From assembly GCF_016545825.1 (NCBI RefSeq), contig NC_052616.1, positions 7,564,001 to 7,628,000 of the forward strand: 64,000 nucleotides of DNA, in the 5' to 3' direction. Position numbers and translations under genes: made by a program. Source of the DNA: Eucalyptus grandis. Lineage: Eukaryota > Streptophyta > Magnoliopsida > Myrtales > Myrtaceae. The notes under the pieces were generated by a model, which was not told where the DNA came from, did not search any database, and worked only from the letters and a program-made list of their open reading frames with translations. Every line of letters starts with the position of its first letter. The first letter of the stretch is position 1. Positions 24,599 to 60,431 of this stretch are shown here, in pieces.

Positions 24599-27557
24599 CT
24601 AAAACTTAAGCCATCGGGGCGAGACTTTCCAATTAATACTAAGTGGGGATTGCGGTGACTTCAAGGGGAGCTCGCGAGGCTTTACCCTTGCCTTCAAGTT
24701 CAAAATGGCCATCGCCTCTTCAATCGAAGGCCGAGAAGTAGTAATGGGATGAGCGCACAACAACCCCGCTATTATTAGGGCCTCGGCCTGTTTCTTGTCG
24801 AAATCCTTGCCGAGCTTCTCATCCACCGCATGGACCAACTTCCTGGCCCTATAGTGCTTCAATGACCACTCTATGAGGTCTATTGGGTCTCGTTCCAGGT
24901 CGATGACTCTTCTCCCAGATACTATTTCCAAAAGGACGACTCCGAAACTGTAGACATCAGTTTCTTTACTTGCCCTACTAGTTGTAATATATTCCGGAGC
25001 CATGTAACCCCGTGTTCCTATCAATTCAGTTGTCTTGGACCCTGTGGCATAGTCTACTAGCCTAGCCAATCCAAAATCTCCCAATTTGGCCTCGAACTCT
25101 TCATCGAGCATGATGTTGCTAGACTTGATATCCCTATGGATCACGCATTGACGACATTGTTTTTGCAGGTAGTGCAACACCGAGGCTAATCCTTGAGCGA
25201 TTTTATACCTTGTTTCCCATGTCAATAAGGATTTGCCTTTAAATAGATGATCCTCCAAGCTACCTTCACTCATGAATTCGTAAACCAGGACAAATTTATC
25301 CGCCTCGTGACAATAGCCTATAAGTGGCACCAAGTTTTTGTGCCTAAGCTGGCTCAACGTGATCACCTCAGATTTATACTCATTCATCCCTTGGTGCGAA
25401 TCATAGTTTATAACCTTCACGGCGACCTGTGTGCGAGCTTTTCCTATTCGCCCTTCGTACACCGCGCCGAAACCTCCTTTTCCCAGAATCTTGCGATCTG
25501 CAATCGCTGTCATCAATTCTTCATAGGAGAAGTTCTTTGGTCCACTAAACTTTTCAAACTCCATGGTTAATCCATGGCCGCCTTCTTCTCCACCTCTCAC
25601 GGTCTCGGTGTTGTTCTCTTCGGTTGTCTGAGGTGCATTATTTCCCTCTGGCATATCATTGCTCGGGGATGGACTGGCAACTTCTGACATATGACTTACC
25701 CAAGCAGCACTATCTGCCAAAGATCTCGACGCCGAGAACCTAGCATCCAAACCCCCGTACGAAACACCACCCGTATGAAACCGCCTGGACTGGAAGGCCT
25801 GCTTATTTGCCTCTGGATTATTCTTATGACCTTCAGTCACGTTCGGTCCCCCTATACACACTTCACTGCTCACCCCCACCGCCCTTATGGCCCCATACTC
25901 ATCCGAAATCGCCATCTCCTGCCCTACAGGTCTCCCGACTGAACTGGGCTTATGCTCACCATCTTCGGGCAAGGGGTTTGAAGCCGTCAGGTGAGTAGCC
26001 TCCATCATTGCATAAGCCTCAAGCACGGGTGCACCAAATGCCTCCTCAAGCTGAGCCCGGATAGAGGGCGCGAGTAACGCACCGCAGCTCATTATGAATC
26101 GTAGCTTCGGGTAAGCCGGCTGTGGCTTGCTGAGGTGGTGGTCCAGGATGATCTGGTGGATTCTAGGGATTGCTGTGTACCACGTGGCATTGTATAAAAT
26201 CATATCTGCCCAAAATCTGGATGCTGAGAACCTAACAGCCGCCGGGAGGGCCACGGTAACTCCAGCAGCTAAAGAGCTCAATAATCCAGCAACCAAGCCG
26301 TATACATTGAACATCGGAAGCACAATCACGGTAGAGTCTGAATTTGTTAGTTTGTACACCCGCTTGATGTTCTGAACCGATGAAGCCAAATCGTGCTGAG
26401 TTAGCAGCACGGGTATGGGGTGACTCATATTGCTGGAGGTGTGCAAGAACAGAGCTACATCCGAGGGTTCGTTGACGACTTTGGACATCAAGTCAAGGCT
26501 CGGCTCTATGTTGATCGAAGAGAGAGTGATTTTGGACTTGGCGGAGTGAAGCTTGGCAGTTAGGTGGGGGATGTTAAGCATGGAAGCAGCAAATTGAGCC
26601 TGTTGATTTCCTTCTTGTGGTGTCAATAGGAGCTTCGACCCCGAGTTGGAAAGGCAGAAGCTGAACCGCTCAGCTGTGTAGGTGGGGTTAAGCGGAGCCA
26701 CTATGGCTCGGCAACGGATTACTGCCAGTAGCAGGATTACAAACTGCAAAACAAACGCAGATTTCCAATCAGCAAAGTATCACACTAGTCCCCGTGGAAT
26801 GGAGATTACACGGGGACTAGTGTGATACTAGTTTGTCATTGTTTGATTCCATTAAAAGCATCCTTCTCCTGTTGATAAGCTTTGACTTGTTTTATGACAA
26901 AAGGATTCTTGTACATCCCAAAAACAACCTTTGGACACGACAGAAAATGCTCTTCATGCTCTTCCCAATTGAACTTGTTCCTATTTAATTTGCAGCAGAC
27001 GACAAAACACGTTATCTCAAAGCACTCGCGCTCACAGAAATCTCATGCCTTAGATGCAATTCTATTTTCTTTATCGAAATTGACGCCATTCCCGTTGCTC
27101 TGTTCTCGAAGTACCGTAAAACACCGAGTCCCATCCTCTTTTCAAGCTATTTCCCAGTCGATCTTTCTCATAAGTGATCGATCTCATCGTTAGAAAGTTA
27201 TCGCTACGGCGATCTACCAGATATTGCATTCTCGAGTTCAAGCAGCATCATCAGGAATTTTCGCGTTTGAATTCACATCATCACACAAACGAAAACTCGC
27301 AAACAAGGCATGCCATGCGCCGAACTCGCAGAACAGGCTCGATGATCCGGACATACCTCGACGGTGTTGGGGAAAGTGAGAGCGACGACGTCGCCGGCAT
27401 CGACGCCGGAGAAGACAAGGAGCGCAGCGGCTTCATCGACGCGCTCCCGCAGATGCGCATAAGTCAGTTCGATCTTCCCCCTGACGGAGACGGCTATCTG
27501 GTCGGGGCTAGTCGACGCCACCATCTTCATCAGGCCTGTGAGCGTACGTACTTCCAT
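24599..27557 (-). CDS. Chimera copy 1: AAE3-like adenylating domain fused to LecRK-type kinase
   Basis: Two exons: 27357-27557 (67 codons, start at 27557) and 24599-26743; 613-bp GT-AG intron at the junction used by all four copies (PNTVE|FVI). Product 781 residues. Residues 1-about 395 follow AAE3/oxalyl-CoA synthetase, including the GGPNVTEG...FHTGG region where AAE3 has FHTGD; the Asp is lost. The phosphate loop reads HTSSNMSHPIP (168-178), losing the SGT...PKG consensus, and the YAMTE motif is YAMME. After an acidic Ser/Glu-rich linker (about 400-455) comes EFEKFSGPK, the juxtamembrane segment of L-lectin receptor kinases, then a full kinase: GKGGFG 488-493, Lys510, HRD 603-605, DFG 623-625, APE. 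No signal peptide, lectin domain or membrane helix. Probably a cytosolic RD kinase; its substrate is unknown. Confidence 0.85.
26776..26829. repeat. Perfect 21-bp inverted repeat in the intron of chimera copy 1
   Basis: Arms 26776-26796 and 26809-26829 are exact reverse complements, with a 12-base loop. The left arm matches the same intron position in copies 2-4 (about 38629, 47089, 59739), but the right arm is found only in copy 1. Confidence 0.9.
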
Positions 27558-28460: not shown

Positions 28461-28531
28461 GAACCTGTAATTAAAAAGGGAATGGAGGATCAAGGAGTGC
28501 GACTTTGGTGAGCAGGAGCGAACTCGTCCAC

Positions 28532-28728: not shown

Positions 28729-28739
28729 ACCTATTACAG

Positions 28740-30183
28740 AATTTTTCATTAGGTGATAGAATAGAGATCATAAATTTAGGACGTTAATTATTTTTTTCTT
28801 CGATTTTGACCTTTTTTCATATATAAAAAAGAAAAGAAAATTAGTCTCCACTCCCAAATTAGCCGTTGGAAAGTCTTAAGAGGATCGTCTTCCATTCTAA
28901 CCATTGGACATGTTCAAATACCATCGTTGGATCAAAGAGGAATCAATGACCATGATTAGATTCTTTCATGTATAAATAGGGGAATCTCCCCCTCACTTGT
29001 ACACTCTAGTTCACGAGCTAATACAATTTGAGTTTCACTCTCATACTTCTTCTTTGTGAACTAAGTGCATGTGTAAGGCTGACTTGGGATTGAATCTTAA
29101 AGCCGTATGGGTGTGGGATCGTTTATAACTAACCAACCTGTGACAAATGGTATTAGAGCCTTTGTTCCAAGCATAATGGTTGATCCTTATTCCGATGTTG
29201 CAATTGTTCAAGGCAAAGATCGCAAGGATCATGGAAGACCGATCGAGAAGGTCACCCGATCGAAGAAGAATTGTGTTGTCTCGAGCTCGAGGGCCAAAGG
29301 GTGACTTGGAGAACCGAATGATGGTTCTCGAGGAGACTGTCACGGACGTCCAAGGAATGGAGGATGACCTGAACTAGACCGCCAAGGGAGCGAAAGCTGG
29401 AAGGGAGGAGTTCTTGGCCAAAGTGAAAGAACTCACAGTTGGCATGAGAGAGCTATGCGCCGAGGTGTTGAGGTCCCTCACGCACGAGTTGTAGTAGCAG
29501 ATGAGACTTGGGAGGCTGCAATGGCGGCCATGCACATGAAGATTGCCGAGCTCAAAGTCAAGCTCGTGAAGGTTGAAGCAGCATGTGCGAACAGGGGTGT
29601 TCACCGTGTAAGCAAACTCACGTACTGATGCATCCAAGCCAAGGGAGTTCAAGGCTAATGGTGGCCAAGGAAGTGAATAATTTTTCTTGTGGTACATGAA
29701 ACGATACTTCCAGGCCATGGGGATCAATGACGACACATTTAGGTAAACACCGTATCCATGTATTTAGTTGATAATGCATTGTTGTGGTGGATCATCAATC
29801 GTATGATAGGTGTGGCAACATGACGTGGGCACGGTTCATTGAAGAATTTCAACGAAACTACTATTTGGCATATGCAGAAGAGGAAGTGATGAACTCAAAC
29901 GCCTTGGACAAAAGGACTTAGTTCTTAATTATCTAAAGCAATTCTCGGAGCTATTGCTCCAAATCCCGTCCATGAGTGAGAAGGAGGTGTACTACTAGTT
30001 CATGAGTGGGCTCAAGCCATGGGTCAAGCAAGAGCTCAAGCGATGCAACGCAGCGGATCTTGTGACGGCTACGTCCCTGGCTGAGTCTCTTGTGGAATAT
30101 AAGTTGCCCTTCACGATGAAGTCCGATCCTCACCCGAAGGACAAAGCCAATGGTGGGGGAGATTGTGGAAGATTCAATCGCCT
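28740..30183 (+). mobile_element. Relic of a Ty3/gypsy-type retroelement: LTR end, primer-binding site and broken gag
   Basis: A TATAAATAGG box at 28971-28980 lies in the presumed LTR, which ends AACCTGTGACA at 29145. TGGTATTAGAGCC at 29148-29160 is a near-perfect initiator-tRNA-Met primer-binding site. From about 29170 gag-like coding follows in several frames, including WYMKRYFQAMG near 29690 and TWARFIEEFQRNYYLAYAEE near 29826, broken by stops and shifts. At about 30184 gag gives way abruptly to glutathione peroxidase exon 4. No pol or 3' LTR is present. The left edge is uncertain. Confidence 0.7.
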
Positions 30184-30768
30184 TAGCAATCCCGTGCAAC
30201 CAGTTTGGAGCTCAGCAGCCGGGGTGGACAAATGTGGAGATCCTACAATTTGCTTGCACTCGATTCATGGCCGAATATCCCATTCTTGATAAGTTGAAAG
30301 AATAGATACATACGCTGAGCGTGTTGCGAACTACTTTTCGTTCTAGTTCTCTAGAAAGTTTTTCTTGGAGTTGTATCTGGAGTTCCCTCATATTTCCTAG
30401 CGACTGGTAATTTGCAGCTTGAGTCAAAAAAGGTCAAAAAACTAAGTGAGGAGGAAGAATCTGATTGCTTTTTCTATAAGTTGCCGTGAAGGGGCAAAAT
30501 GCCGCCCCTCCCTACGCGTTCCTGAAATCAAGCAAGGGCGGACTCTTTGGGGATGACATTAAGTGGAACTTCTCCAAGTTCCTCATCGATAAAGAAGGAA
30601 ATGTCGTTGATCGCTATGCGCCCACTACTTCTCCTCTTAGCATCGAGGTAAGAGTCTGATCTTCAACGATCATAGTCCTAGCTTCTGGATTTCTTTGGCT
30701 AGTTGACTCAGGCATTGCAGTTGTTATTATCGCAGAAGGACATCAAGAAACTGTTGGGAGTGGCATGA
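30184..30768 (+). pseudogene. 3' half of a glutathione peroxidase gene (unit 2 relic)
   Basis: Collinear with the intact gene from inside exon 4 (8217) to the stop. Relic exon 4 is 30184-30293, with a small insertion after the CCGGGG and its donor changed to TT. Relic exon 5 is about 30481-30647 and keeps the [10 protein letters not shown] and KWNFSKF codons, but its acceptor context is altered. Exon 6, 30736-30768, is identical in sense and ends in TGA. Exons 1-3 and the catalytic Cys are absent, so it cannot make an active enzyme. The upstream neighbour is the gag relic. Confidence 0.9.
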
Positions 30769-31747
30769 GCGCTGGAACTTCTTTTCCCCTGTGAGGATGA
30801 GGAGTAATCTGAAAAATAAGCATCCTCTTGGCTCATCATGAGGATACCTCTAGATGTTTTCTTCACATGTTTTGTTGTTGAATTTGCACTGCGTTAATAA
30901 TGTAAAGATGCCAGTAAAGTCCAGCTCCTGTTTTTCCACTACTGTATGAAATCGTTTAGAAAACTAAAGGCACTAATTATTGCGGGTGTAGCAAGTTCTA
31001 ATATTCAGGTGCTACGATGCTATTAGTTGGTTGATCATTTCTCTGGCAGAAAAAGCTTCGAATGAGCGATACATGGCGCTGAAGTTAGATGAGTTTTTGG
31101 CTGTTGGAGTAGACTGTCTTTGTACAGTCCTTTCCTGTTTGTGATGTTGCCCGGGAAGATGGTTTTCTTAACCATCGAATCTTCGATGTGATTTAAACAT
31201 GAAACTGTTTAGCTAACAGCATTAGGTAACTTCTCTCTACTGAATAATTACGTAAAAAATGACTTGATCAATGAACTGCCACAGGTGATCAAAGTTACAT
31301 TAATAATAACATCATGCTCGAACAAACAAATGCGTTGACTAGAGGGTCATCGATGCTGAGGGTCATCAATCCATAGTGACATCTTTTGTGGCTTTTCCTG
31401 AGGCCGCAGTGTTATGGTGCGGGGAGGGGAGAGAGAGATTAATCTCACTTAGTCACTTGTTAGACGGTCTTGTGTACCCTTTGAGAGAGAGAGAGAGAGA
31501 GAGAGAGAGCAACCAAACTACATTTCACTGGTTACAGAGTCTTTTGACACCCTCCTGTGCTTTTCCTCTAAACATAGAAAACAAAAATTGCCAAAACTCG
31601 TTAAATATCTACTTATCCCTCTTAAACTCTTTATGGTGCTTTAGCAGCAGGTGGTAATGGCACTGCGTTTCTACCATCGCAATTTGCAGTTTACATGCAA
31701 GCTATGCTCTGAGAATGAGAAAGGCCCCCACAGTCCTCGCATATGTC
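30769..31747. other. Spacer between GPX relic and YqgF copy B
   Basis: Collinear with 8792-9633; contains an enlarged (GA)n run at about 31482-31509. No gene is seen. Confidence 0.6.
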
Positions 31748-34700
31748 CTATTCAGAAGACTCTGATCTCTGCTTCTTGTTGGCATAATCCAAATATCCCT
31801 GCCCAAAACAATAGTAGCGTTCAACAACAGACGACAGTGGTCTCAAAACAAAAAGCTCACACACTGTATATAGGATATTTTCAATAAACAATTGAATGCA
31901 GAACAATAAGGAAAAATCCATGTCGCCCTTTTCCTTCTATCTATTGCAGCCTAGAGGTATTGCTAATTGCTATGCACCAACAATGCTTGAGAGTTGAAGG
32001 GAAGCCTGTTCATCAGCCAAGTCTCATTTTTCATTTCTATCCTAAAGAAAACCTTCAACCATGACATTTGTATACTTAATCATGAAACAGTGATCTATAC
32101 TAGCAAAGAGAAAGTGGAGGGATGAGCTACTTCTTCCCAGGAAGAGGTGAAGAGCCAGTTACCTGGAGTATCCCCATAGCAGCAAACTTGTCCATTATTG
32201 TCTTCGCTACTACCGAATGCAACGTCAAAGGTTGTAACAACAATTCCACGTTCTGTAAACAGACAATGCATTAGCGCCCCATGATTAATTAAAAATAACA
32301 ACAAGATACTCATTTGCGAAAAGGAGTTGAATTTAGCTTTCCATTTGTGAACAATGGGGACAGCCGCTGGACCACTTAAGAACACAACCTAGTAATGCTG
32401 GAAGCCCAAATGGGAAAGTAAGGAAATGAGTCCTGATAAGAAAACTGCCTTTAATTTGTACAGCAGCAGAACTTTTAAGTAGAAGCATCATTTATTTCAG
32501 ATAGGGTTTTCACTTTGGTTAGCAAATCGGCAGCTTTGTGAGCACATTGAATTATGTGGGACATATACTAGAGGATACAAACTTAAGCCGTACAAACTAA
32601 AGCATTATTTACAGTTCATGCTGTTGCTTCTACCATTGCAATTCGGACCTTGAAGATTGGATGAAACAAAGAAAGGTAAGGAACCACTTCATTGAGCTAA
32701 TCTTGTGCACAGTGCATAAATACCTTAGTAGAAAAACAGGATGTCAGGCTAAGACTTTGAAAGAAGAAGGAAAGCAAGTTGCACCTTTGATGTAAAGGTT
32801 TCTTCCCAATACGTATAACAAACACCTTCAAGTTTTCCTGTTTTAGAAAGCTCGTCAATAAAAACCTTCATTTGCACAGCCTGATTACAGAGAACAGAAA
32901 AGGATAAGAAATTTATAAATAGCATGCCAGAAAAGTTATAGAAAATAATGGTTTAAAGGAGACGTACATCACGATTGGGACTACGAAACCGGTCAAGAGG
33001 GACGCCAACCACAAATCCAAGTAGCGAGAATTCAGAGACCTACACATATATAAGGAAACAGGAACCAATCAGGCCCTTGTAGAAACTTTTCCAAGACCAT
33101 GCAAATTACTGCACGTACACATTCAATAAGGATATTGTGATCCAAGAGTGAGAAACAATAAGATAATTGACCAAAACCTGGCCATAACTGCCTTAAGAAA
33201 CCCCTAACTTTAGGTCAAATCTCAATTTTGTCCCAATTTTGTTTTTTGTATTAAAAAAATGCCCAAATTTTACTCTAGTCCCAAAGCTACCCCATGCATT
33301 CAAAAATCAACGCTAGTTTCTTCAAGATCATCTAAGAGGTTCGTTATCAAAATTTGCATTTTCATCAACACCCTCACCTACGTATAAAATAACAGCAGTC
33401 TCTTGATGTTGAAAATCTTGAAGAAACCAATGGCGATTTTTGGAAGCATGAGCAAATTCTGGGCTAGAGTTAAATCAAGGATTATTTCAGACAAAAAAAT
33501 GTTCAGGGCAAAATTGGGATTGGACCTAAACTTTAGAGTTTTTTTAGGGAATTCTCCCCCAAAACCTAAGGTGTGATCTAATTGAGATACCAGGTCTGAT
33601 GATTCCAGCCCAGGTAAACAGAACGCAATAGCAATAACCCCTCTTTCAGATAGGAACTAATGAGGCAAGAAATTAAAGATTAGGGAATAAGCAATGACAA
33701 ATACCAAGCTGTGAGCAGAACCAACACTGAAAATTACTCTTTGTTGAGGACCTTCAAACAACTATATTCATAGTTAGAAGCCAGACTGAGGACGATAAGC
33801 AAAATGCTCCAGTCATCCAAACACTTAGGTTGGAAAAACTTCTTTATAGGACACATCCAAACAGTAATTCCCACAGGGACAATTCCTCCAAGAAATGGAG
33901 ATACTAACACAAAAGCAGACTGAAAGGCAGACTCACCAGACTCTGAAGATCAGTCGCCATCAAGTCAATATTTGTCTTCTTCCTAAGCAGAACACTGCAA
34001 TTATGGCAACAACAAAGATCATTTCACAAGTAACAACTGCATATACCACAACAAGGTTAGGATCCCAAGAAAGAAAATAGAAAATTCCCCCAGAGGGACA
34101 AGCCGAAGCAAATTCATGACGTCCAAGTTCCATCCTTCTAAATACCATAAACAAGAATAGTTCTCGTATAGAATCAGAATGAGAAAAAGTACACTGAAAG
34201 TCCTAGATCTTATGTAAAGATTGCCATCAATTGAATCAATTCGAAAGTTTAGAAGTCAATTGCACTTTTTGCTAAAGGTTTAGTACTTGATTGAATCAAT
34301 TGAAAGTTTAGGATTCAATTGTATTCAATACATAAGATTTAGGACTTAGGGTATATTTCTCCTGAATCAGATTTTTACATGGCAACCCTACGAAGTGAAG
34401 CACATATCAACATCATTAAGATCAACAACATCTGTACCAATCATCTATGCAATCATCCTTGGGTTTATGTTATCCACAACTCTATCATCCGATTCATAAG
34501 TGTCACCGTGAATCCTGTGGAAATCTCAAACTCACTGGCCCATGTACAACCTTACGTCCTATGCACCAGAGTGCAATCCGATGCTCAATTTCTATGGAGG
34601 TAAAATGCACAGGAATTGATATAAACATATACTACAATTCGTCTTGGCCAAAGTATGATACAATGCGCATGTATGGAAATACCTCAGGGGTGACGCGACC

Positions 34701-36600: not shown

Positions 36601-39358
36601 CTATAACCAAGGCATCCAGGCGGAGACCTTCCGATCAATACAAAGTGGGGACGGCGGCATCTTCGAGGGGAGCTCGCGAAGCTTTGCCTTTGCCTTCAAG
36701 TTCAAAACGGCCATTGCCTCTTCAATCGAAGGCCGAGAATCAGCAATGGGATGAGCGCACCACAGCCCTACAGTCAACAGGGCCTCTGCCTGTTTCTTGT
36801 CAAAATCCTTACCAAGCCTCTCGTCCACCGCATTGACCAACTTCTTGGGTCCATAATGCTTCCGTAACCACTCTGCAAGGCCTATTGGGTCGCGTTTTAA
36901 GTCGATGACTCTTCTCCCAGATCCTAATTCCAAAAGGACGAGTCCGAAACTATAGATATCGGTTTCCTCAGTTGCCTTACCAGTTACACAGTATTCCGGA
37001 GCCACATAACCCATTGTTCCCATCAATTCAGTTGTTTGGGACCCTCTGGCATGGTCTCCTAGCCTAGCCAATCCAAAATCTCCCAATTTGGCCTCGAACT
37101 CTTCATCAAGCATGATGTTGCTAGACTTGATATCCCTGTGGATCACGCATTGACGACATTGTTTTTGCAGGTAGTGCAGCGCCGAGGCTAATCCTTGAGC
37201 AATTTTGTACCTTCTTTCCCATGTCAATAAGGATCTACCTTTAAACAAATGATCCTCCAAGTTACCTTCACTCATGAATTCGTAAACCAGGATGAATTTA
37301 TCCTCCTCGTGACAATAGCCTATAAGTGGCACCAAGTTTTTGTGGCTAAGCTGGCCTAACGTCATCACCTCAGATGTATACTCCTTTAACCCTTGGTGCG
37401 AATGAGAGTTTATTAACTTCACGGCGACCGGTGTGTGAGCTTTTCCTATGCACCCTTCATACACGACGCCGAAACCTCCTTTTCCCAGAATCTTGCGATC
37501 TGCAGTCGCGATCATCAACTCTTCATAGGAGAACTTCGTCGGTCCATTAAACATTTCTAATTCTACGGTTAATTTCAACCTATGGCCCCCTTCTTCTGCA
37601 CCTCTCTCGCTCTCGGTTTTGTTCTCTTCGGTTGTCTTAGGTGCATCATCTCCCTCCGGCGTATCATCGCTCGGGCATGGACCGGCAACTTCTGACATAT
37701 AATGTTCCCGAGCAGCACCATCAGCAGAAGATCCCGACGCCGAGAACCTAGCATCCATAATCGCCATCTCCTGCCCCACAGGACTCCCGACTGACTCAGG
37801 CTTATGCTCGCCATCTTCGGGCAAGGGGTTTGATGCCATCAGGTGAGTAGCCTCTGTCATTGCATAAGTCTTGAGCACGGGTGCATTAAATGCCTTCTCA
37901 AGCTGAGAAATAATAGAGGGCGCGAGGGACGCGCTGCAGCTCGTTATGAATCGAAGCTTTGGGTAAATCCGCTTCGGCTTGCTGAGGTGGTGCTTCAGGA
38001 TGTTCTTGTGGAATATAGCGTCTGCTGTGTACCACGTGGCATTGTATGAAATCATATCTGCCCAAAATGTGGGCACCGAGAACCTAACGGCCGCCGGGAG
38101 GGCCACAGCAGCTCCAGCAGCTAAAGAGCTCAATAATCCAGCAACTAAGCCGTGCACATGGAACAACGGAAGCACAATCACGGTGGAGTCTGACTCTGTT
38201 AGTTTATACACCCGCTTGATGTTCTGAACCGATGAAGCCAAATTGCCCTGAGTTAGCAGCATGCGTTTGGGGCGACTCGTAGTGCTGGAGGGGTGCAAGA
38301 ACAGGGCTACATCCGAGGGATCATTGACGACTTTGAACATCAATTCGAGGCTCGGCTCTATGTCGGTTGAAGAGAGAGTGATTCTGGAATTGGCGGAGTG
38401 AAACTTGGCAGTTACGTGGGGAATGTTAAGCTTGGAAGCAGCGGATTGAGCCCGTTGGTTTCTTTCCTGTGGTGTCAATAGGAGCTTCGGCTCTGTGTCG
38501 GAAAGATAGAACTCGAATTCCTTAGCTGTGCAGATGGGGTCGAGCGGAGCTGCTGTGGCTTGGCAACGGATTACCGCCAGAAGCAAGATCACAAACTGCA
38601 AAACAAACACCTATTTCCAATCAGCAAACTATCATACTAGTCCCAGCGGAATGGAGATAAGAGCAGTCTGTATATCTGCAGAATATGCAGACAACTACTT
38701 CGACGTTTGATTCATCAAAACCATCCATCTCCTTGATGAGCTTCGACTTGTTTTACGATGAATCAATGCTTGTACCTCCCAAAAAAACAACCTTTGGACA
38801 CAACAGACTGTTCTTCGTGCGCTTCCTAATTCAATTTGTTCCTGTTCAATTCGCACCAGGCGCTCACAGAAATTTCCTGCCTTAGATGCAATTTTTTTCA
38901 ATAGAAATTGACACCATTTCTATTTCTATTGCTCTGTTCTCGAAGTACTGTAAAACTCTCAATTTTTTGTCCCCCAAGCTATTTCCCAGTCGATCTTTCA
39001 CAAGTGATCAATACCACCATTAGGAATTCAGCGTTACCTCGAATTTAAGCGGCATCATCAGGGAATCTTTCGCATTTGAAATTCACAACATCGCATTTCA
39101 AAAAAAAAAAACTCGCACCATCGCACTCGCGAGGAGACTCGATGATAGGGGACGTACCTCGATGGTGTTGGGGAAAGCGAGTGCGACGACATCGCCGGCA
39201 CCGATGCCGGAGGCCACAAGGAGTGCGGCGGCACGGTCAACAAGCTCCTGCAGCTGCGCGTGCGTCAGGTCAAGCTCCCCGCAGGCGGAGACGGCTCTCC
39301 CGTCAGGGAAATCCGACGCCGCCTTCTGCAGCAGGCCCGTGAGCGTAAGTTCCCCCAT
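36601..39358 (-). CDS. Chimera copy 2: AAE3-like adenylating domain fused to LecRK-type kinase
   Basis: Exons 39158-39358 and 36601-38595, intron 562 bp; 731 residues. Exon 1 (MGELTLTGLL...FPNTIE) and residues 68-about 347 follow AAE3. The phosphate loop is HPSSTTSRPKR (168-178), with the final PKG glycine replaced by Arg, while YAMTEATH (311-318) is retained. The synthetase part stops earlier than in copy 1, at GQEMAIMDARF, with no GEVCI or FHTGD region. The linker DARFSASGS...MSEVAG...TTEEN (about 346-412) is shared with copy 1 only. Kinase: FSYEEL 421-426, GKGGFG 438-443, Lys460, HRD 553-555, DFG 573-575, APE 599-601, so all catalytic residues are present. Its 5' flank holds a YqgF exon 5 relic about 250 bp upstream. 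No membrane segment or signal peptide. Confidence 0.85.
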
Positions 39359-44441: not shown

Positions 44442-44942
44442 CTAAAACCCAAGGCATCCAGGCGATACCTTCCGATCAATACTAAGTGGGAATTGCAGCA
44501 TCTTCGAGGGGAGCTCGCAGAGCTTTGCCTTTGCCTTCAAGTTCAAAACGGCCATTGCCTCTTCAATCGAAGGCCGAGAAGTAGCAATGGGATGAGTGCA
44601 CCATAGCCCTACAGTCATTAGGGCCCTTGCCTATTTCCTGTCGAAATCCTTGTAGAGTCTCTCATCCACCGCATGAACCAACTCCCTGGGCCCATATTGC
44701 TTCCATAACCACTCTGTGAGGCCTATTAGGTCTCGTTCTAGGTCGATGACTCTTCTTCCGGATTCTATTTATAAGGATGACTCCAAAACTGTAGACATCA
44801 GTTTCCCCACTTACCTTACCAGTTGCACAGTATCTTGGAGCCACATAACCCAATGTTCCTATCAATTCAGTTGTTTTGGGCCCTCTAGCATGGTCCACTA
44901 GCCTAGCCAATCCAAAATCTCCCAATTTGGTCTCAAACTCTT
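44442..44942 (-). pseudogene. Kinase-only relic of the chimera (C-terminal lobe)
   Basis: Starts abruptly at 44942 in the codons for EFETKLGDFGLARL, runs through the activation loop (GTLGYVAPRY, where the APE Glu is Arg) and the C-lobe, and ends at a TAG at 44442-44444 in the same position as copies 1-2. A frameshift in the VYSFGVIL region and an early stop split the frame. It is followed upstream (44943-45122) by a second copy of the chimera 3' flank, so it is a partial tandem duplicate. Confidence 0.85.
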
Positions 44943-45122
44943 AATTGAGTATCTTATCACACCATTCTAAGCACAAATGCGCATATATAACATTAAAAGA
45001 TACACCGTTGCCTACCATCTACAAGGCGCTTGCCTAAAAGCCAAACGCACAGATACAACATCTTGCTTGAAGATGACATACAAACATGTATGTAACACTA
45101 AAAGAGGCATCATTGCTTGCAC

Positions 45123-47822
45123 TCAGAGCGAGGCATCTGCCCAAAACCCCAAGCATCTAGGCAAGACCTGATCAATACTATGTTGGGACCGTAGCCTCTT
45201 CGAGGGGAGTTTGCGAAGCTTTACCTTTCCCTTCAAGTTTAAAATGGCCATTGCCTCTTCAATCGAAGGCCGAGAAGTAGCAATGGGATGAGCACACCAC
45301 AGCCCCGCAATCATCAAGGCCTCCGCTTGTTTCTTGTCAAAATCCTTGCCCAGCCTCTCGTCCACCGCATGGACCAACTTCTTGGACCCATATTGCTTCC
45401 ATAACCACTCTACGAGACCTATTGGGTCTCGATTCGAGTCGATGACTCTTCTCCCGGAACCTATTTCCAAAAGGACGACTCCAAAACTATAGATATCGGT
45501 TTCCTTACTTGCCTTACAAGATATATAGTATTCTGGAGCCACGTAGCCCCGTGTTCCTATCAATTCAGTTGTTTTTGGCCCTCTAGCGTGGTCTACTAGC
45601 CTAGCCAATCCGAAGTCTCCCAATTTGGCGTTGAACTTTTCATCAAGCATGGTATTATTAGATTTGATATCCCTATGGATCACACATTGATCACATTGTT
45701 CATGCAAGTAGTACACTGCTGAGGCCAATCCTAGAGCGATGTTGTACCTCCTTTCCCACGTCAACAAGGATCTACCTTTAAACAGATGATCCTCCAAGCT
45801 ACCTTCTCTCATGAATTCGTAAACCAAGATAAATTTATTTGCCTCGTGACAATAGCCTGTAAGTGGCGTTAAGTTTCTGTGCCTAAGTTGGCCTAACGTC
45901 ATCACCTCGGATTTGTACTCTTTTATCCCTTGGTGCGAATCAGAGTTTATTATCTTCACGGCGACCTGTGTGCGAGCGTCTCTCAAGTGCCCTTCGTACA
46001 CGACGCCAAAACCTCCTTTTCCCAGAATCTTGCCACCTGCAGTGGCGATCATCAACTCTTCATAGGAGAACTTCTTCGGTCCACTTAACTTTTCAAACTC
46101 CATGGTTAAGTTAGGGTCGCCTTCTTCTCCACCTCTCTCGGTCACGTTCGGTACCCTTATGCACACTTCGTGGCTCGCGCCTGCCGCCGCCTGTATGGCC
46201 CCATGCTCATCCGAAGTCGCCATCTCCTGCCCCATGGGTCTCCCGACTGACCCGGGCTCATGCTCACCATCTTCGGGCAAGGGGTATGAAGCCATCAAGT
46301 GAGTAGCCTCCATCATTGCATAAGCCTCGACCACGGCTGCACCAAATGCCTCCTCGAGCTGAGCCTGGATAGATGGCGCGAGCGACACGCTGCAGTTCAC
46401 TATGAATCGAAGCTTCGGGTAAGCCAGCTTTAGCTTGCTGAGGTGGCGGTCCAGGATGATCTGGTGGAGTGAAGCGTCCGCTATGTACCATGTGGTATTG
46501 TATGACTTCATATCTCCCAAAAATGTAGGCACCGAGAACCTAACAGCTGCCGGGAGGGCCACGGCAGCTCCGGCAGCTAAAGAACTCAATAATCCAGCAA
46601 CTAAGCCGTGCACATTGAACAACGGAAGCACAATCACTGTAGAGTCTGACTCCGTTAGTTCAAACTCCCGCTTGATGTTCCGAACAGATGAAGCCAAATG
46701 GCGCTGAGTTAGCTGCATGCGTTTGCGGCGACTCGTAGTGCCAGGGGTGTGCAAGAACAGAGCTACATCCGAGGGATCGTTGACGACTTTGGACATCAAG
46801 TCGAGACTCTGCTCTTTGTCATTCGAAGAGAGAGTGATCTTGGAATTGGCGGAGCGAAGCTTGGCGGTTAGGCAGCGGATGTTAAGATTGGAAGCAGCGG
46901 ATTGAGCCCGTTGGTTTCCTTCGTGGGGTGTTACTAGGAGCTTCGGTTTTGTGTCGGAAAGATAGAACTTGAACTCCTTAGCTGTGTAAATGGGGTTAAG
47001 CGGAGCTGCTGTGGCTCGGCAACGGATTACCGCCAGAAACAGGATCACAAACTGCAAAACAAACACATATTTTCCGATCAGCAAATTATCACGCTAGTCC
47101 CTGCGGAATGGAGATAACACATACGTATTTGTAGAATGTGCAGACACTAGTTTGTCGCCGTTTGATTTCATCAAAACCATCCATCTCCTTTTGATAAGCT
47201 TTGACTTTTTTGTTTGACGATGAATCGATGCTTGTACATCCCCAAAAACAACTTTTGGACACGACAAAAAACGCTGTTCATTCTCTTCCCAAATCAATTG
47301 GTTCCTATTTATTTCGCAATAGACGATTAAAACTTGCAACGTCAAAGCAACCATGCGCTCATAGAAATTTTATGCCTCCGATGCAATTTCTTTCAATAGA
47401 AATCGACACCATTTCTGTTGCTCCGTTCTCGAAGTACTGTAAAACTCCAAGAAACATCTTTTTTTCCAAGCTATTTCTTAGTCGATCTTTCACAAGTGAT
47501 CAATCTCGAATTTAAATAGCATCACCAGGAATTTTTCACATTTGAAATTCACATCATCGCACAAACGAAACTCACACCGTCGTACTCATGGGGAGACTCG
47601 ATGATTGGGGGGACATACTTACCTCGATGGTGTTGGGAAAAGCAAGCGCGACCACGTCGCCGGCACCGATGTTGGAGGCGGCGAGGAGCGCAGCGGCGTG
47701 GTCAACGAGCTCCTGCAGCCGCGCATGCGTCAGGTCGAACTCTCCACAGGCGGAGACAGCTCTCCCATCGGGGAAATCCCATGCTGCCTTCTTCAGCAGG
47801 CCCGTGAGCGTAAGCTCCCCAT
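45123..47822 (-). pseudogene. Chimera copy 3, long open second exon but frameshifted first exon
   Basis: Exons 47623-47822 (200 nt instead of 201) and 45123-47051 (642 codons plus stop); intron 571 bp. The start reads ATGGGGAGC where copies 2 and 4 have ATGGGGGAA/ATGGGGGAG, a one-G loss that shifts the frame at codon 3. An in-frame TGA lies upstream in the correct frame, so no upstream start rescues it. Exon 2 is fully open: phosphate loop HTPGTTSRRKR, MME for MTE, short linker after VPNVTERGGEEGD, then EFEKLSGPKKFSYEEL and a complete kinase with GKGGFG, VAVK, HRDIKSNN, DFG and APE. A product is possible only from an internal ATG or another first exon. Its kinase half is nearly identical to copy 4. 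Confidence 0.8.
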
Positions 47823-48391
47823 CGCTAAATCACAGGTAACGAATCGACGGGAATCGGCTTTGGCCAGAACCAATCCCCGATGGAGCTGAAGAGGGGCACC
47901 ACGATTTCTTGGCGAGACGGAGAATGAAGAATGGACGTGAACAGGAATTCGCACGAAGGAGAATGGGGAAAACGGGAGCGTTAGCAGGAGGAGACCATAT
48001 GGGATGGAGACGAGACGAGAGGGACCCCATTCATTAAAATTTTCGTACCAAATTTTCCTCCAAAATCTTGTGTAGCAAATCAACTCATACAATCACATCT
48101 CATTCAAATAATATAAGTCGTTAGATGCACAGTGCATGCCAAAAATTACGCGCATTGAGCCATCAATTGAAAAAGCGACATATAATGTCATGAAGTTTCG
48201 ACTAAACTACTACATGATCACGACGTCAAAGAGAAAATCTTATTAGCTATTCGTGATGCCTATTTACTTAGGAGTTACAGCATGATTCAAGACATATCTT
48301 AAACATCATCAAGCTAAGGTACGGACAAAGCAAACGACAACAACATGAGAGAGCAGCAACAAACAACACCTACGCACAAAGTCACATGGAG
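47823..48391. other. 5' flank of chimera copy 3
   Basis: The first 200 bp are like the other chimera 5' flanks; the rest is unrecognised. It ends in the TGGAG target duplicated by element X3. Confidence 0.5.
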
Positions 48392-50229: not shown

Positions 50230-53200
50230 CTCCTCCACTTCGAAGAACTCGACCCCGAGTTATGATTAGGATAAAGAGGAGTATCTGAGGATGATACTCA
50301 AATAGGTCCGCTACATTGAATGTCGGGGAGATGTTGAGGTCACTAGGAAGATCAACAACATAGGCATTATCATTGATTTTCTTCACAATTCGACGGGGAC
50401 CAACTTTCTTGTGCTTCAGCTTGTTATATGTATCAACAGGAAACCGTTCCTTGCGGAGGTAGACCATTACTTCATCACCCTCAGCAAAGACCTTGAGGCG
50501 ACGATGTTTATCTGCAGCAACTTTGTAAACTGTAGTGGAAGCTTCTAGCTGTTGCTTCACACCCTCTTGTATCTCTTGTAATTTTGTTGCTAAGTTTTCA
50601 GCCGCAACACTATATCCTCGGGACTTTGGGCAAAGGCACGAGATCCAAGTGTATGTTATGGCGTTCGCCCGTAGATAACCTCAAACGGAGACTTGCCCGT
50701 GGAACGGTTGACAGTGTTGTTAAAAGCAAACTCAGCAGGAGCAAGATACCGGTCCCATTGCTTTGGCATGTCACTACAAAGACACCGAATAATATCCGCC
50801 ATAGTACGATTGACAACTTCAGTTTGCCCATCGGTTTGAGGATGAAAGGAACTGCTATACTGCAAATCCGTCCCAAATAAACGCCTGGGTCCTCCAAAAA
50901 TGACTAAGGAATTTGGTATCACGATCGAGGTGATAGTTTTTGGAACACCATGCAAACGAACTACTTCTCGAAAAAATAAACTCGCTACATGAGAAGCATC
51001 GAAGTCTTCTTGCAAGGGATAAAGTGTGCCATCTTTGTAAACCTGTCCACTACCACAAAACAGAATCCATACCTCGTTGGGTTCGAGGAAGCCCCAACAC
51101 GAAATCCATTGAAATGTCTATCCAAGGTCCGAAGGAATAGGTAGAGGGGTGTAAAGTCCGGTGTTCGAGAATGGCCTTTCGCGTCGACAAATGTAGCACT
51201 TTCTCACAAATCGTCCAACGTCCCGTTTCAATTGAGGCCAATAATACCACTCCTCAACTAAGGCAACGGTTTTATCTCGCCCACAATGTCCTCCAAGGGA
51301 GCCACCATGCAGCTCTCGAATAAGTTGTTCCCGCAAAGAGCTTCGAGGAATGCACAACCCGTTGCCAAAGAATAAAAATTTGTCCCGAACGATCATGTCA
51401 CCGTGAGAACCTGTCTCAAAACATTTTTCCCAAATTTCCTGAAAATCTTCATCATCGGCATAAAGAGCACAAAGGTGGTCAAAGCCCACAACGCCGGTGC
51501 GCATGGTGACAAGTGTTGCAGCACGACGGCTAAGTGCATCGCCGACTTTGTTCAAGTGGCCCGCCTTGTGTCGAAGCACGAAATTGAATTGCTCCAAAAA
51601 GGAGACCCATCGTCCATGCATTCGATTTAGATGTCTTTGGCTCTTAATATATTTGAGTGCCCGATGGTCAGTGTTAAGGACAAACTCATGTTGATAAAGA
51701 TAGGGCTGCCAATGCTTGATAGCTCGTACTACAGCAAAGTACTCTTGCTCATAAGTAGACCATCGCTTGCGAACATCATTAAGTTTCTCGCTAAAATAAG
51801 CAATAGGCTTACCTTCCCCGGAAAGAACAGCACCAATTCCTACACTAGAAGCATCACAGTCTAGTTCGAATACCTTTTCAAAATTCGGGAGCATCAGTAT
51901 TGGTGCCGTGGAAAGTTTTTCCTTGATGAGAGCAAAGCTGGCTTCGTCACCCCAATGAAATTTTCCTTTCTTCAAGCACTCGGTAATCGGAGCCATAATA
52001 GAACTGAAATTCCGAATAAAGCGTCGGTAGAATGTCGCAAGCCCGTGGAAGCTACGCGCCTCCCAACGGTTTGGGGAGTCGGCGATCGCGGATGGTAGCT
52101 ACCTTTTCTGCATCAACTTGAAGGCCTTCGCTCCGACAATATATCCCAAGAAGCGAAGTCGATCAGTCATGAAGCTACACTTCTTCAAATTAATGTACAA
52201 TTGGTTCGCCTCGCAAGGCCGATAAGACGTCCCTTAGATGCTCCATATGTTGTTGGTCATCGAGACTATATATGAGAATGTCATCAAAGTAGACCACCAC
52301 AAATTTGCCAATAAAAGGTTTAAGAACTTGAGTCATCAAACGCATGAAGGTGCTAGGCGCGTTCGTGAGGCCAAACGACATGACAAGCCATTCATACAAA
52401 CCTTCACTTGTTTTAAAGGCTGTTTTCCATTCATCGCCTGGGCAGATGCGTACTTGGTGGTATCCGCTACGTAGATCAATCTTTGTAAAGACCTTTGATC
52501 CCGCAAGCCGGTCGAGCATGTCATCCAAGCGAGGGATTAGGAATCGGTACTTGACAGTAATCCGATTAATTGCCCGGCTATCAACGCACATACGCATGCT
52601 TCCATCTTTCTTCGGAGTGAGGAGTGCGGGTGCATAAGGGCTCATGCTTTCGCGCAAGAAGCCTTTTGAAGCAGCTCTCCCACTTGGTCTTGCAAAATCT
52701 GGTTCTCCTTCGGGATTCATCCGGTAGTGCGGCAAATTAGGGAGGCTCGCTCCTGGAAGAAAGTCAATCTCATGTTGGATATCCCTCAAGGGTGGTAATC
52801 CAACAGGTAGATCCTCCGGAATAACATCGCTGAATGCCCTCAATAAGGGTTGAAGAGCCACCGGAATTGGAATAATGGCTTCTTGATTACCTTTCTCCAC
52901 AATCATATACATGCCCTCACGTTTACGAACGTTTAGCATAATTCCTGCACTTTGCTTCTTTGGGGCCCGGGAGTGTTACTCATCGGCTTCAAAATAATTT
53001 TCGTCTTTTCCACACAAAGAATATGTGTTCTCACGAGCTCTATGAGTGATATCAACATCGTATTGCCATGGTCGCCCCAATAGGACATGACATGCATCCA
53101 TCTCCACTACATCACAAATTATGGTGTCCTTATAGGACTTTCCAATTGAAATAGGTAAATGACATACCAAGCGTCACCTTGAGTTCGGCCCCTTTACGAA

Positions 53201-54612
53201 TCCACCCGATTGTATAAGGGAGGGATGTAACTCTGTCTTTAGTTGTAGATGGTCCACCAAAGCCTTGGACACTATGTTCTCACAACTTCCGCTATCGATG
53301 ATGACATCGCAAACTTTGCCGTTGACGGTACAACGGGCACGAAAAAGACTATTCCGCTGCGTGTCTTCTCTTCGCGGAGCGAGCAACATCTCCTAACAAC
53401 GCAATTGACATGCTCGCCCTCCTCATCCTCCACTTCTTCCTCATCAATCCAGTCATCTTCGTAAATGTCATCGTCGTGCACAACAACATTGGCCATCTTC
53501 CGCCGTGGACAATCACTCGAACGATGTGCTACTTCGTTACACTTGTAGCATTTGATTGGTGGTGGCTTAGCGTATGGGTTCTGGGCACTCTGATTGGCGT
53601 TACGATTGTTTGCGATGACTGGTTCCTTGCGCACCCCAGTACTACTTCCCGGAGTTTGGTTCATAGTGTTGGTTTGCTGGTTGGAGGATTCTGAAACATC
53701 TAGTTGTCTCCCCTTTCCAGATAATCCTCGAGCGGAATAATTGTTAGCCCGATTAATGGGGCTAGTTCTCTCTAATTGCATCTCAACCTTTCGGGCCATC
53801 TCTTGAGCATCCTCAACAGAGAACAAACGATGTAGCGAAACACGATCTTGAATATTAAGTCGCAAACCATTAATGTACCTCGCAGTTTGTTGTGCCTCCG
53901 ACTCAGCCAGGTTGTTACGGGCGGAAAGTCAGAGAAACTCCTCCGTGTAAGCTTGGACTAATCGGCTTAGCTGCTTACAATTTTGAAATTGTTGAAATAA
54001 TTATTGCTCATAATCGGTTGGGAGGAACCGAACCTTCAACATTTCCTTCATCCGATTCCATGTTCGGATGGGAGCTTTTCCTTGTCGACGTCGGGTCAGT
54101 TGCGTTTGCTCCCACCACGCTGAGGCACCGCCCTTCAATTTGTATGCCACCAATTTTACTTGGCGATCCTCTTCAATCTCCATGGCATCAAAGAATTTCG
54201 ACTTCCCAAAGCCAATCCAAAAAGTCTTCAATATTCAAATTGCCATTAAAGGTCGGAAGGTCAACCTTAAGTTGATATTGCTCGGGGTCTCGTCGATATC
54301 CCCGGTTCCGATGGCCTCCACGAATAGGCCGATCCAGAACTCTTCTTCTCCTTCGAGTCCTCGACATAGGCTTGTCGCCTCGTCGGGATTTGCCCCCACG
54401 TTCCATAGCTACTTCCGGGTCGCGAGCTGCCCGATCATGTTCAGCCGAAGAACACCGGGTATGGGGTTGGTAGACAAACGCTGGATGGCGACAAGTAATT
54501 CTTGAAACCTCCGTTCGGTTTGCTCCGCAAATTGGTTGAACTCATCCCGTGTAATAGGCTCGTTTCTGCGGCCTTCAGCTACGGGGAGATTGACATTAAT
54601 GTTATTAGCCAT
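50222..54612 (-). pseudogene. gag-pol region of the gypsy element, interrupted
   Basis: gag starts at 54612 (MANNIN...) and runs in shifting frames to about 53270, with a retrotransposon capsid segment (about 54000-54240) and a zinc knuckle CYKCNEVAHRSSDC near 53520. Protease: DVIIDSGS near 53300. Reverse transcriptase: 52190-52939, with YFDDILIYS; its frame is lost near 52205. RNase H: 51600-51900, with [11 protein letters not shown]. Integrase: zinc-binding H-H-C-C segment near 51190-51310 and catalytic core 50656-51250, also broken near 51050. The C-terminal segment, 50222-50560, ends within the 3' LTR; no chromodomain is seen. Several frameshifts make one functional polyprotein unlikely. 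Confidence 0.85.
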
Positions 54613-54629
54613 CGTCACAGGAGAAACCT

Positions 54630-54641
54630 GCTCTGATACCA
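54630..54641 (-). other. Primer-binding site (initiator tRNA-Met)
   Basis: Minus strand TGGTATCAGAGC, two bases inside the 5' LTR, complementary to the 3' end of plant initiator tRNA-Met. It fixes the element's orientation. Confidence 0.9.
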
Positions 54642-54643
54642 AA

Positions 54644-55034
54644 TGACGCAAAGAAAGCGATGCTTTGGAAAGAATTCCAAAAGATGGTGTTTATTTTGAA
54701 TAATGAAGTGCCGATTACAATATCTTTGGCGCCTATTTATAAGAAGGTCGCCATCTAGAAAATAACAAAATAACTTAAATCTAGTAACAAATTTGAAAAG
54801 ATATTGATAAACTAGAAAATCTAAAATCTAATAACAAATTAAAGAAACGATATTGATAAACCAGAATATTTCAGATAAACCAGAATATCTGAAATAAAGG
54901 GAAACGCGTGAATCAAATATTGTAATCCCTTTTGCAATCTTGAAGATCACACAATCCTCTTTAATTTGTGGGACCGCCCGCTCTTATGACGCTCCATTGT
55001 TTCCAGAAAGGCATTTGCATATTGTTCTACATCA
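54644..55034 (-). repeat. 5' LTR of the gypsy element
   Basis: 391 bp, same length as its partner. It begins TGATGTAGAACA on the minus strand and ends TGCGTCA. Confidence 0.9.
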
Positions 55035-57745: not shown

Positions 57746-60431
57746 TCAAAGTGAGGCATCTGCCCAAAACCCCAAGCATCCAGGCGAGACCTTCCGATCA
57801 ATACTGCGTAGGGACTGTGGCATCTTCAAGGGGAGTTTGTGAAGCTTTGCCTTTGCCTTTAAGTTCAAAACGGCCATTGCCTCTTCAATCGAAGGCCGAG
57901 AAGTAGCAATGGGATGAGCACACCACAGCCCCGCAATCATCAAGGCCTCCGCTTGTTTCTTGTCAAAATCCTTGCCCAGCCTCTCGTCCACCGCATGGAC
58001 CAACTTCTTGGGCCCATATTGCTTCCATAACCACTCTACGAGACCTATTGGGTCTCGATTCGAGTCGATGACTCTTCTCCCGGAACCTATTTCCAAAAGG
58101 ACGACTCCAAAACTGTAGATATCGGTTTCCTTACTTGCCTTACCAAATATATAGTATTCCGGAGCCACGTAGCCCCGTGTTCCTATCAATTCAGTTGTTT
58201 TTGGCCCTCTAGCGTGGTCTACTAGCCTAGCCAATCCGAAGTCTCCCAATTTGGCGTTGAACTTTTCATCAAGCATGGTATTGCTAGATTTGATATCCCT
58301 ATGGATCACACATTGATCACATTGTTCATGCAAGTAGTACACTGCCGAGGCCAATCCTAGAGCGATGTTGTACCTCCTTTCCCACGTCAACAAGGATCTA
58401 CCTTTAAACAGATGATCCTCCAAGCTACCTTCTCTCATGAATTCGTAAACCAAGATAAATTTATTTGCCTCGTGACAATAGCCTGTAAGTGGCGTTAAGT
58501 TTCTGTGCCTAAGTTGGCCTAACGTCATCACCTCGGATTTGTACTCTTTTATCCCTTGGTGCGAATCAGAGTTTATTATCTTCACGGCGACTTGTGTGCG
58601 AGCGTCTCTTAAGTGCCCTTCGTACACGACGCCAAAACCTCCTTTTCCCAGAATCTTGCCACCTGCAGTGGCGATCATCAACTCTTCATAGGAGAACTTC
58701 TTCGGTCCACTAAACTTTTCAAACTCCATGTCTATGGTTAATTCCAAGCTATGGTCGCCTTCTTCTCCACCTCTCTCGGTCTCGGTTTCGTTCTCCTCGG
58801 TCACGTTCGGTCCCTTTATACACACTTCACCACTCGCACCCGCCGCCTGTATGGCCCCATGCTCGTCCAAAATCGCCATCTCCTGCCCCACGGGTCTCCC
58901 AACCGACCCAGGCTTATGCTCGCCATCTTCGGGCAAGGGGTTTGCAGCCATCAGGTGAGTAGCATCTGTCATTGCATAAGCCTCGAGCACAGGGGCACCA
59001 AATGCCTCCTCGAGCCGAGCCCTGATAGAGGGCGCGGGTGATGCGCTGCAGCTTGTTACGAATCGAAGCTTCGGGTAAGCCGGCTCCTGCTTTCTGAGGT
59101 GGCACTTCAGGATTTTCTTGTGGAATATAGCGTCTGCTGTGTACCACGTGGCATTGTATGAAATCATATCTGCCCAAAATGTGGGCGCCGAGAACTTAAC
59201 AGCTGCTGGGAGGGCCACGGCAGCTCCAGCAGCTAAAGAGCTCAATAGTCCAGCAACTAAGCCGTGCACACGGAACAATGGAAGCACAATCACGGTAGAG
59301 TCTGACTCTGTTAGTTTGTACACCCACTTGATGTTCTGAACTGATGAAGCCAAATTGCGCTGAGTAAGCAGCAAGCGTTTGGGATGACTCACAGTGCCGG
59401 ACGTGTGCAACAAAAGAGCTACATCCGAGGGATCGTTCACGACTTTGGACATTGAGACAAGGCTCGGCTTTATGCCAGTCGAAGAGAGAGTGATTCTGGA
59501 ATCGGCAGAGTGAAGCTTGGCGGTTAGGCGGGGGATGTTAAGCTTGGAAGCAGCGTCTTGAGCCCGTTGGTTTTCTTCTTGTGGTGTCAATAGGAGCTTC
59601 GATCCAGAGTAGGAAAGGTAGAACTCGAACTCCTTAGCTGTGTAGATGGGGTTGAGCGGAGCTGCCGTGGCTCGACAACGGATTACTGCCAGAAACAGGA
59701 TCACAAACTGCAAAACAAACACATTTTCCAATCAGCAAAGTATCACGCTAGTCCCCGCGGAATGGAGATAATACACATGTATTTGCAGAATATGCCGACA
59801 ACTAGTTTGTCGCCTTTTGATTTCATTAAAACCATCCATCTCCTTGATAAGCTTCGACTTGTTTTGCGATGAATCGATGCTTGTACATCCCAAAAAACAA
59901 ACCTTTGGACACGACAGAAGACGCTCTTCATGCTCTTCCCAATTCAATTTGTTCTTGTTCAATTCGCACCACGCGCTCACAGAAATTTCATGCCTTAGAT
60001 GCTATTTTTTCAGTAGAAATCGACACCATTTCCGTTGCTCTGTTCTCAAAGTACTGTAAAACTCAAAGAAACATTTTTTTTCCAAGCTATTTCCTAGTCG
60101 ATCTTTCACAAGTCATCAATCTCATCATGAGGAATATATCGTCACCGTGATCTTCCAGATATTACATTCTTGAATTTAAATAGCATTATCCGTGCTCGCA
60201 GACAGACTCGAGATGATCCAAACATACCTCAACAGTGTTGGGGAAAGCAAGTGCGACGACGTCACCGGCACCGACACCAGAGGCGGCAAGCAGCGTGGCG
60301 GTGTGGTCAACAAGCTTCTGCAGCTGCGCATGCGTCAGGTCGACCTCCCCGCAGGTGGAGACGGCTGTCCTGTCGGGGAAATCCGATGCCACCTTCTTCA
60401 ACAGGCCCGTGAGCGCAAGTTCCTCCCCCAT
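57746..60431 (-). CDS. Chimera copy 4: AAE3-like adenylating domain fused to LecRK-type kinase
   Basis: Exons 60228-60431 (68 codons, MGEELALTGLL...) and 57746-59707; intron 520 bp; 721 residues. Of the four copies it keeps the best phosphate loop, HTSGTVSHPKR (169-179), but still has Arg for the PKG glycine. The YAMTE motif is YAMTD. The synthetase part continues through GEVCIKGPNVTE (about 361-372), where the kinase juxtamembrane segment takes over after a short Glu/Thr-rich join: TIDMEFEKFSGPKK. Kinase: FSYEEL 406-411, GKGGFG 422-427, Lys444, HRD 537-539, DFG 557-559, GTRGYVAPEY. The C-terminal hinge-and-lid domain of AAE3 is absent. No lectin, signal or membrane segment. A YqgF exon 5 relic lies about 300 bp upstream. 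Confidence 0.87.

Follow-up and report, generated by a model that had tools for sequence, protein, structure and literature searches.

In the Triticeae, kinase fusion proteins (KFPs; Sr43, Lr9, Pm4, Yr36 and others) carry an apparently active kinase and another domain in one chain; they are reported to be lineage-restricted, and an integrated-decoy model has been proposed for them (PMC10260397, PMC10260399, PMC12830362). According to this model, the kinase signals and the extra domain is the proposed integrated decoy (PMC10260397, PMC10260399). Pm4 is described as binding and phosphorylating its effector, and also a non-recognised variant (PMC12830362). The class has been called 'specifically found in cereals' (PMC12830362), so that an example from the Myrtaceae would be notable. 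The other system of interest here is the oxalyl-CoA synthetase AAE3, which is reported to be cytosolic in rice (PMC5222848) and Medicago (PMC4763187). Over-expression of OsAAE3 reportedly leads to higher susceptibility to rice blast (PMC5222848), and knock-down of Mtaae3 to higher susceptibility to Sclerotinia (PMC4763187); by these accounts AAE3 bears on disease in both directions.

In the window (the whole 64-kb stretch of DNA that was analysed), four genes forming a tandem cluster on the minus strand were distinguished. Each of them (C1-C4) encodes, in this order, an AAE3 N-terminal module, a lectin-receptor-kinase juxtamembrane linker and a kinase domain, and each contains one GT-AG intron. 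The following features were identified:

27357..27557, minus strand: C1 exon 1, AAE3 N-terminus, 67 codons with ATG start, 97% identical to exon 1 of P0006
25730..26743, minus strand: C1 exon 2, AAE3-derived module, residues 68-405
25538..25729, minus strand: C1 linker, lectin-receptor-kinase juxtamembrane segment
24653..25537, minus strand: C1 kinase domain, residues 470-764; gene stop at 24599
39158..39358, minus strand: C2 exon 1, 67 codons with ATG start, 100% identical to exon 1 of P0004
37708..38595, minus strand: C2 exon 2, AAE3-derived module, residues 68-363
37540..37707, minus strand: C2 linker, juxtamembrane segment
36655..37539, minus strand: C2 kinase domain, residues 420-714; gene stop at 36601
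47623..47823, minus strand: C3 exon 1, homologous frame; ATG in another frame, in-frame ATG absent
46137..47051, minus strand: C3 exon 2, AAE3-derived module, lower end approximate; groups with P0003/P0005
46077..46136, minus strand: C3 linker, juxtamembrane segment (approximate)
45192..46076, minus strand: C3 kinase domain, 96% identical to the C4 kinase; frame stop at 45123
60228..60431, minus strand: C4 exon 1, 68 codons with ATG start
58796..59707, minus strand: C4 exon 2, AAE3-derived module, residues 69-372
58703..58795, minus strand: C4 linker, juxtamembrane segment
57818..58702, minus strand: C4 kinase domain, residues 404-698; gene stop at 57746
44445..45006, minus strand: two overlapping extra pieces of a fusion-type kinase 3' part, just downstream of C3

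The long minus-strand frames of the four genes extend over 24599-26779, 36601-38610, 45123-47093 and 57746-59731. All four second exons match both Pfam AMP-binding (E 1.1e-42 to 1.7e-53) and Pfam Pkinase (E 1.2e-43 to 2.9e-48). Exon 1 measures 201-204 nt in every copy, and the intron (GT...CAG, 520-613 nt, phase 0) lies in the same place in C1-C4, after codon 67 or 68. The translated products of C1, C2 and C4 have 781, 731 and 721 residues, respectively. An earlier note on this DNA had described four fused paralogues with a shared intron, and the domain matches and the intron bear this out for all four copies; C3 (45123-47823) departs from it, as the ATG of its exon 1 is in a different frame and exon 1 has none in the frame of the fusion. 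C3 is probably not translated as a full fusion. Three copies (C1, C2 and C4) therefore look intact, and it is these that occupy the spans 24599-27557, 36601-39358 and 57746-60431 named in the earlier note.

The AAE3-kinase fusion is real. Tandem near-copies are error-prone in assembly, which might favour an assembly or annotation artefact, but the two modules lie within a single uninterrupted exon (exon 2) in four diverged copies, and the fusion recurs in gene models of four Myrtaceae species from three genera (Eucalyptus, Corymbia and Syzygium) as well as in contigs of 2.1-2.2 kb. These separate species records and contigs largely refute an artefact, short of a cause shared by all of them, and we consider this explanation hardly credible. 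Three protein searches were based on the best 120 matches each (7994-7996 candidates scored); the third yielded no additional fusion. Among the 247 distinct database proteins listed, 130 match the fusion-kinase profile, and they include the two-module proteins, of which there are at least 15: four from Eucalyptus globulus, four from E. grandis, two from Corymbia citriodora, two from Syzygium oleosum and three from short 'lgn' contigs. The combination of AMP-binding and Pkinase in one plant protein, for which the earlier note had proposed a search, is thus found repeatedly. Gene C2 corresponds to P0004 of E. grandis over both domains (363/363 and 295/295 residues identical), while C1 and C4 are 97.6-99.7% identical by domain to P0006 and P0001 of E. 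globulus; P0001 shares 383 of 384 residues with C4 in the AAE3 half and 293 of 295 in the kinase. By these identities the window probably belongs to a Eucalyptus. The 'lgn' contig proteins P0020, P0023 and P0028 (646, 543 and 543 residues, from contigs of at most 2233, 2152 and 2121 bases) have frames that cross the exon junction, at the intron site of all four window genes, and continue into the kinase. They are probably spliced transcripts, a reading that depends on the source type ascribed to the 'lgn' contigs and concerns genes other than those of the window; origin from a processed gene copy is a possible alternative.

Similarity to the AAE3 enzyme profile stops at position 352 in C2, 371 in C3, 374 in C4 and 396 in C1. 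Between this point and the kinase lies a stretch that resembles lectin receptor kinases of the Myrtaceae in their juxtamembrane segment. The alignment of the C1 linker starts at residue 331 of P0122 and residue 318 of P0106, and the most hydrophobic 19-residue segments of these two receptors are residues 315-333 and 302-320, respectively. Since the linker similarity begins at about the end of this hydrophobic segment, the enzyme piece has taken the place of the ectodomain and the membrane segment. No Pfam lectin match was obtained for C1-C4, and a tblastn search of the window (E up to 0.01), for which two lectin receptor kinases from Myrtaceae supplied their N-terminal parts as queries, gave no lectin-ectodomain hit. 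By hydropathy, none of 10 fusions checked contains a hydrophobic segment beyond that of soluble AAE3. These results support the absence of lectin and membrane parts stated in the earlier note; the legume-lectin ectodomain and transmembrane helix that characterize L-type lectin receptor kinases were thus not found. The kinase and the juxtamembrane linker are shared with class IX of this family (class by database names), and the best solved kinase match to P0001 (residues 404-698) is the plant kinase 6cth, which bears the title kinase domain of cacao PR-1G protein, its chain being named concanavalin-A-like lectin protein kinase. The cacao PR-1 receptor kinase (PR-1G) is said to be a precedent for a kinase of this type with a swapped N-terminal domain; its PR-1 domain is reportedly extracellular and its membrane helix present, whereas the partner in the fusions is an enzyme remnant without a membrane helix. 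The linkers of Corymbia P0007 and P0008 (108 and 104 residues) are longer than in the Eucalyptus proteins measured and look internally repeated by eye. In a same-family kinase of Syzygium oleosum, P0024 (515 aa), the N-terminus looks by eye like a series of juxtamembrane-like repeats, in place of a lectin or AAE3 domain.

The closest solved structures to the AAE3 half of P0001 are the oxalyl-CoA synthetases 6qjz (residues 5-373) and 5ie0 (residues 6-382). Erosion of this half was measured against 92 full-length AAE3 proteins, which share 296 conserved columns (≥95%) out of 525. The comparison took in 13 of the 19 fusion rows, i.e., 12 of the 15 database proteins (all except P0002, P0010 and P0011) and C3, with P0006, P0004 and P0001 as near-identical stand-ins for C1, C2 and C4. 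Motif names (A8, A10) are used in what we take to be the AAE3/ANL convention. None of the 13 fusions retains the A7 aspartate, and neither A8 nor A10 is present in any of them, save one stray aligned residue in P0003 and P0005; the synthetase C-terminal domain is thus missing, in agreement with the earlier note. The complete N-terminal domain plus C-terminal lid with the catalytic lysine (A10) that marks an ANL enzyme is lacking. In the eight long fusions, an average of 72% of the 42 active-site motif columns is retained, as against 84% of the 147 other conserved columns as far as position 345, while three control enzymes, themselves among the 92, keep 100% and 97-99%, respectively; taken protein by protein, the contrast between the two column classes gives Fisher p <0.05 in only three of the eight. 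The gate motif is changed in all eight and the A3 motif differs from that of the enzyme in all eight (in P0007 by the first residue only), A4 is eroded, and A5 is unchanged in four, with one change in each of the other four. In the five short fusions (Syzygium and 'lgn' contigs) the AAE3 part is cut down to roughly its first 190-260 positions, with hardly anything left past about position 280; they keep 70-95% of the filled conserved columns within the first 160 positions.

Given the losses of the A7 aspartate, A8 and A10 and the trimming of the short fusions, the module is almost surely not a synthetase, and sensing of a bound ligand is unlikely. An active oxalyl-CoA synthetase was rejected on the grounds of the absent A8 and A10, the lost A7 aspartate and the eroded active-site motifs. 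A pocket that binds oxalate, ATP or an acyl-adenylate and thereby switches the kinase could be argued from the parent enzyme, which uses oxalate and ATP, from the largely preserved A5 and from the A3 motif of P0007; set against the loss of A7, A8 and A10 in every fusion, the changes of A3 and the gate motif in every long one and the missing second half of the domain in the short ones, such a switch appears very improbable. The earlier proposal of a synthetase-derived sensing or scaffold module thus holds in part: a scaffold or decoy fits, while the state of A7, A8, A10 and the gate motif offers little support for a sensor of oxalate or an acyl-adenylate. Two AF2 models were of low to medium confidence (pTM 0.45-0.46) and weak over much of AAE3 positions 200-390, and PDB matches of the AAE3 half of the first model had an rmsd near 20; statements on pocket integrity are therefore not based on structure.

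Within the kinase half, 17 of the 19 fusion rows have a complete signature of glycine loop, lysine, HRDxKxxN and DFG, and the kinase catalytic signature is present in C1-C4. P0010 (HKD for HRD, DFG lacking) and P0011 end early, part of the kinase is missing from P0002, and P0020, P0023 and P0028 have an altered APE motif. By its motifs the kinase looks intact, with putative activity. Between the window copies, kinase dN/dS is 0.22-0.40 by NG86, with a bootstrap upper bound (200 codon bootstraps each) below 1 in all six pairs, and 0.47-0.60 by YN00 (five pairs, C3-C4 not among them). For the AAE3 half, NG86 gives 0.40-0.76, with the upper bound below 1 in five of six pairs and reaching 1.08 for C1-C2, and YN00 gives 0.57-1.03. 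Gap events number 11-22 in 468-542 aligned nt of intron vs. 4-7 in 2100-2184 nt of CDS. From these dN/dS values and gap densities, the kinase is clearly kept by selection and the AAE3 half is under looser constraint, some of its parts perhaps being relaxed or diversifying; given its YN00 values, part of the AAE3 half may be a passenger.

A decaying tandem array, in which local recombination of lectin-receptor-kinase and AAE3 copies produced chimeras that are becoming pseudogenes, would account for the missing start of C3, the kinase fragments downstream of it, the early ends of the P0010 and P0011 models, and the gene conversion between the C3 and C4 kinases (dS 0.033 in the kinase vs. 0.316 in the AAE3 half). 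It is at odds with the occurrence of joined frames in both Eucalypteae (Eucalyptus) and Syzygieae (Syzygium), with the scarcity of gaps in CDS relative to intron and with the low kinase dN/dS. In addition, in a simulation of 400 runs with random substitutions at 5%, the frame remained open in only 0.75% (C1), 1.5% (C2) and 2% (C4) of cases, whereas the copies themselves differ by 9.7-17% in CDS. Decay of the array is thus improbable. More plausible, though still less likely than not in our judgement, is the capture of a promoter and leader: the AAE3 5' end would supply a promoter, a first exon and a soluble N-terminal leader to an ectodomain-less receptor kinase, which would work alone, its AAE3 residues being mostly passenger and trimmed over time. 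The weaker constraint on the AAE3 half, its shortening in Syzygium and the three 'lgn' contigs, where about 190-260 positions are left, and the presence in the same species of same-clade kinases with other short N-termini agree with such a capture, but the NG86 upper bounds below 1 in five of six pairs, the 84% of non-active-site conserved columns kept in the long fusions and the 70-95% kept at the start of the short ones do not.

The AAE3 tree was built from 42 rows, comprising 18 of the 19 fusion rows (not P0002) and 24 hand-picked enzymes cut to the first 405 residues. All 18 fusion AAE3 halves form one clade (support 100/99), which is sister to two intact 'lgn' enzymes, with Melastoma AAE3 next, a placement indicating common descent with AAE3; their branches are longer than those of the enzymes, indicating faster evolution. 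One capture event is thus the simplest reading. The kinase tree comprised 40 rows, i.e., the same 18 fusion rows and 22 hand-picked non-fusion kinases. Sixteen of the 18 fusion kinases form one clade (support 99/96), and the two Syzygium fusion kinases group with Syzygium kinases without an AAE3 half; a tree in which all 18 are held together scores 32 log units lower but is not rejected (AU p 0.068). By this tree and the linker matches, the kinase belongs to the LecRK clade. The simplest account is that a single fusion was followed by exchange of kinases; the Syzygium line may have undergone a second fusion. Such module exchange between C3 and C4 is seen directly in the window, where the AAE3 half of C3 groups with P0003/P0005 and its kinase with C4 and P0001. 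The double parentage proposed in the earlier note, AAE3 and L-lectin receptor kinase, is supported by the trees, the linker matches and the structure matches alike.

We tentatively propose, with confidence a little short of even, that these are soluble kinase-fusion proteins whose dead AAE3 module offers a surface for docking or acts as a decoy. The fusion would have arisen in a Myrtaceae ancestor when an AAE3 gene contributed its 5' portion (exon 1, the intron and the larger part of the adenylating domain, from exon 2) and an L-lectin receptor kinase everything from about the end of its membrane segment onwards, the enzyme domain taking the place of the ectodomain and membrane anchor. The join itself is seen in the sequence, and the AAE3 tree suggests that it was a single event. 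After the join, the AAE3 half would have lost its catalytic parts, while the kinase, judging by its motifs, stayed intact. The fusions would be located in the cytosol, since AAE3 is cytosolic in rice and Medicago. The dead module may be a docking surface inherited from cytosolic AAE3 and may act as a bait or decoy for a partner, or for a pathogen factor that targets AAE3; binding could trigger phosphorylation by the kinase, either of itself, of the partner it has bound or of an immune component further downstream, in line with what has been proposed for wheat kinase-fusion proteins. It is possible, although we hold it with less confidence than the docking or decoy role as such, that the Myrtaceae independently evolved kinase-fusion immune receptors, with a dead oxalyl-CoA synthetase as bait and a cytosolic LecRK kinase as output, before the split of Eucalypteae and Syzygieae, and that these have been retained since and diversified by tandem duplication and module exchange. 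If the fusions act in immunity, this route to intracellular receptors would have arisen outside the grasses as well, and AAE3 would deserve attention as a candidate host target of pathogens.

Like the Triticeae KFPs, the proteins described here have an apparently functional kinase (activity predicted) and a different domain on one polypeptide; they resemble KFPs by architecture, and membership in the functional class is putative. They differ from the Triticeae proteins in their AAE3 adenylating partner domain, their Myrtaceae host and their occurrence as a tandem family in three genera, and are known from sequence alone. Compared with AAE3 oxalyl-CoA synthetases (5ie0-5ie3, 6qjz), to which P0001 aligns and intact members of which are sister to the fusion halves, they lack the C-terminal part (A8, A10) and have eroded A3, A4 and gate motifs. 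The earlier note knew of no described plant protein with this architecture. A description of an AAE3-kinase fusion was indeed not found in the literature searched (often the top entries of much larger result sets, with subscription papers and preprints outside its scope), nor were six gene identifiers, and the term AMP-binding is absent from the main text of a genome-wide lectin-receptor-kinase study covering Eucalyptus (PMC5007699). The proteins themselves are already deposited in databases for four Myrtaceae species under misleading names: 'oxalate--CoA ligase' (P0003) and 'L-type lectin-domain containing receptor kinase' (P0009, P0016) are each incorrect for the protein in full.

Rfam and tRNA scans of the window gave no matches. 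An LTR retrotransposon (49839-55033, minus strand), presumably Ty3/gypsy-like by its domains, lies between C3 and C4; it has terminal repeats of 390 bp that are 98.7% identical, and matches to reverse transcriptase, RNase H, integrase zinc-binding and zinc-knuckle domains. Exon-like pieces of a P-type ATPase (1051-2914, plus strand) match E1-E2 ATPase and HAD hydrolase, the last piece falling just under the Pfam cut-off. Repeated blocks flanking the fusion genes (8218-12741, 30183-35570 and 61546-63998) show large direct matches of 73-93% identity, which suggests segmental duplication around these genes.
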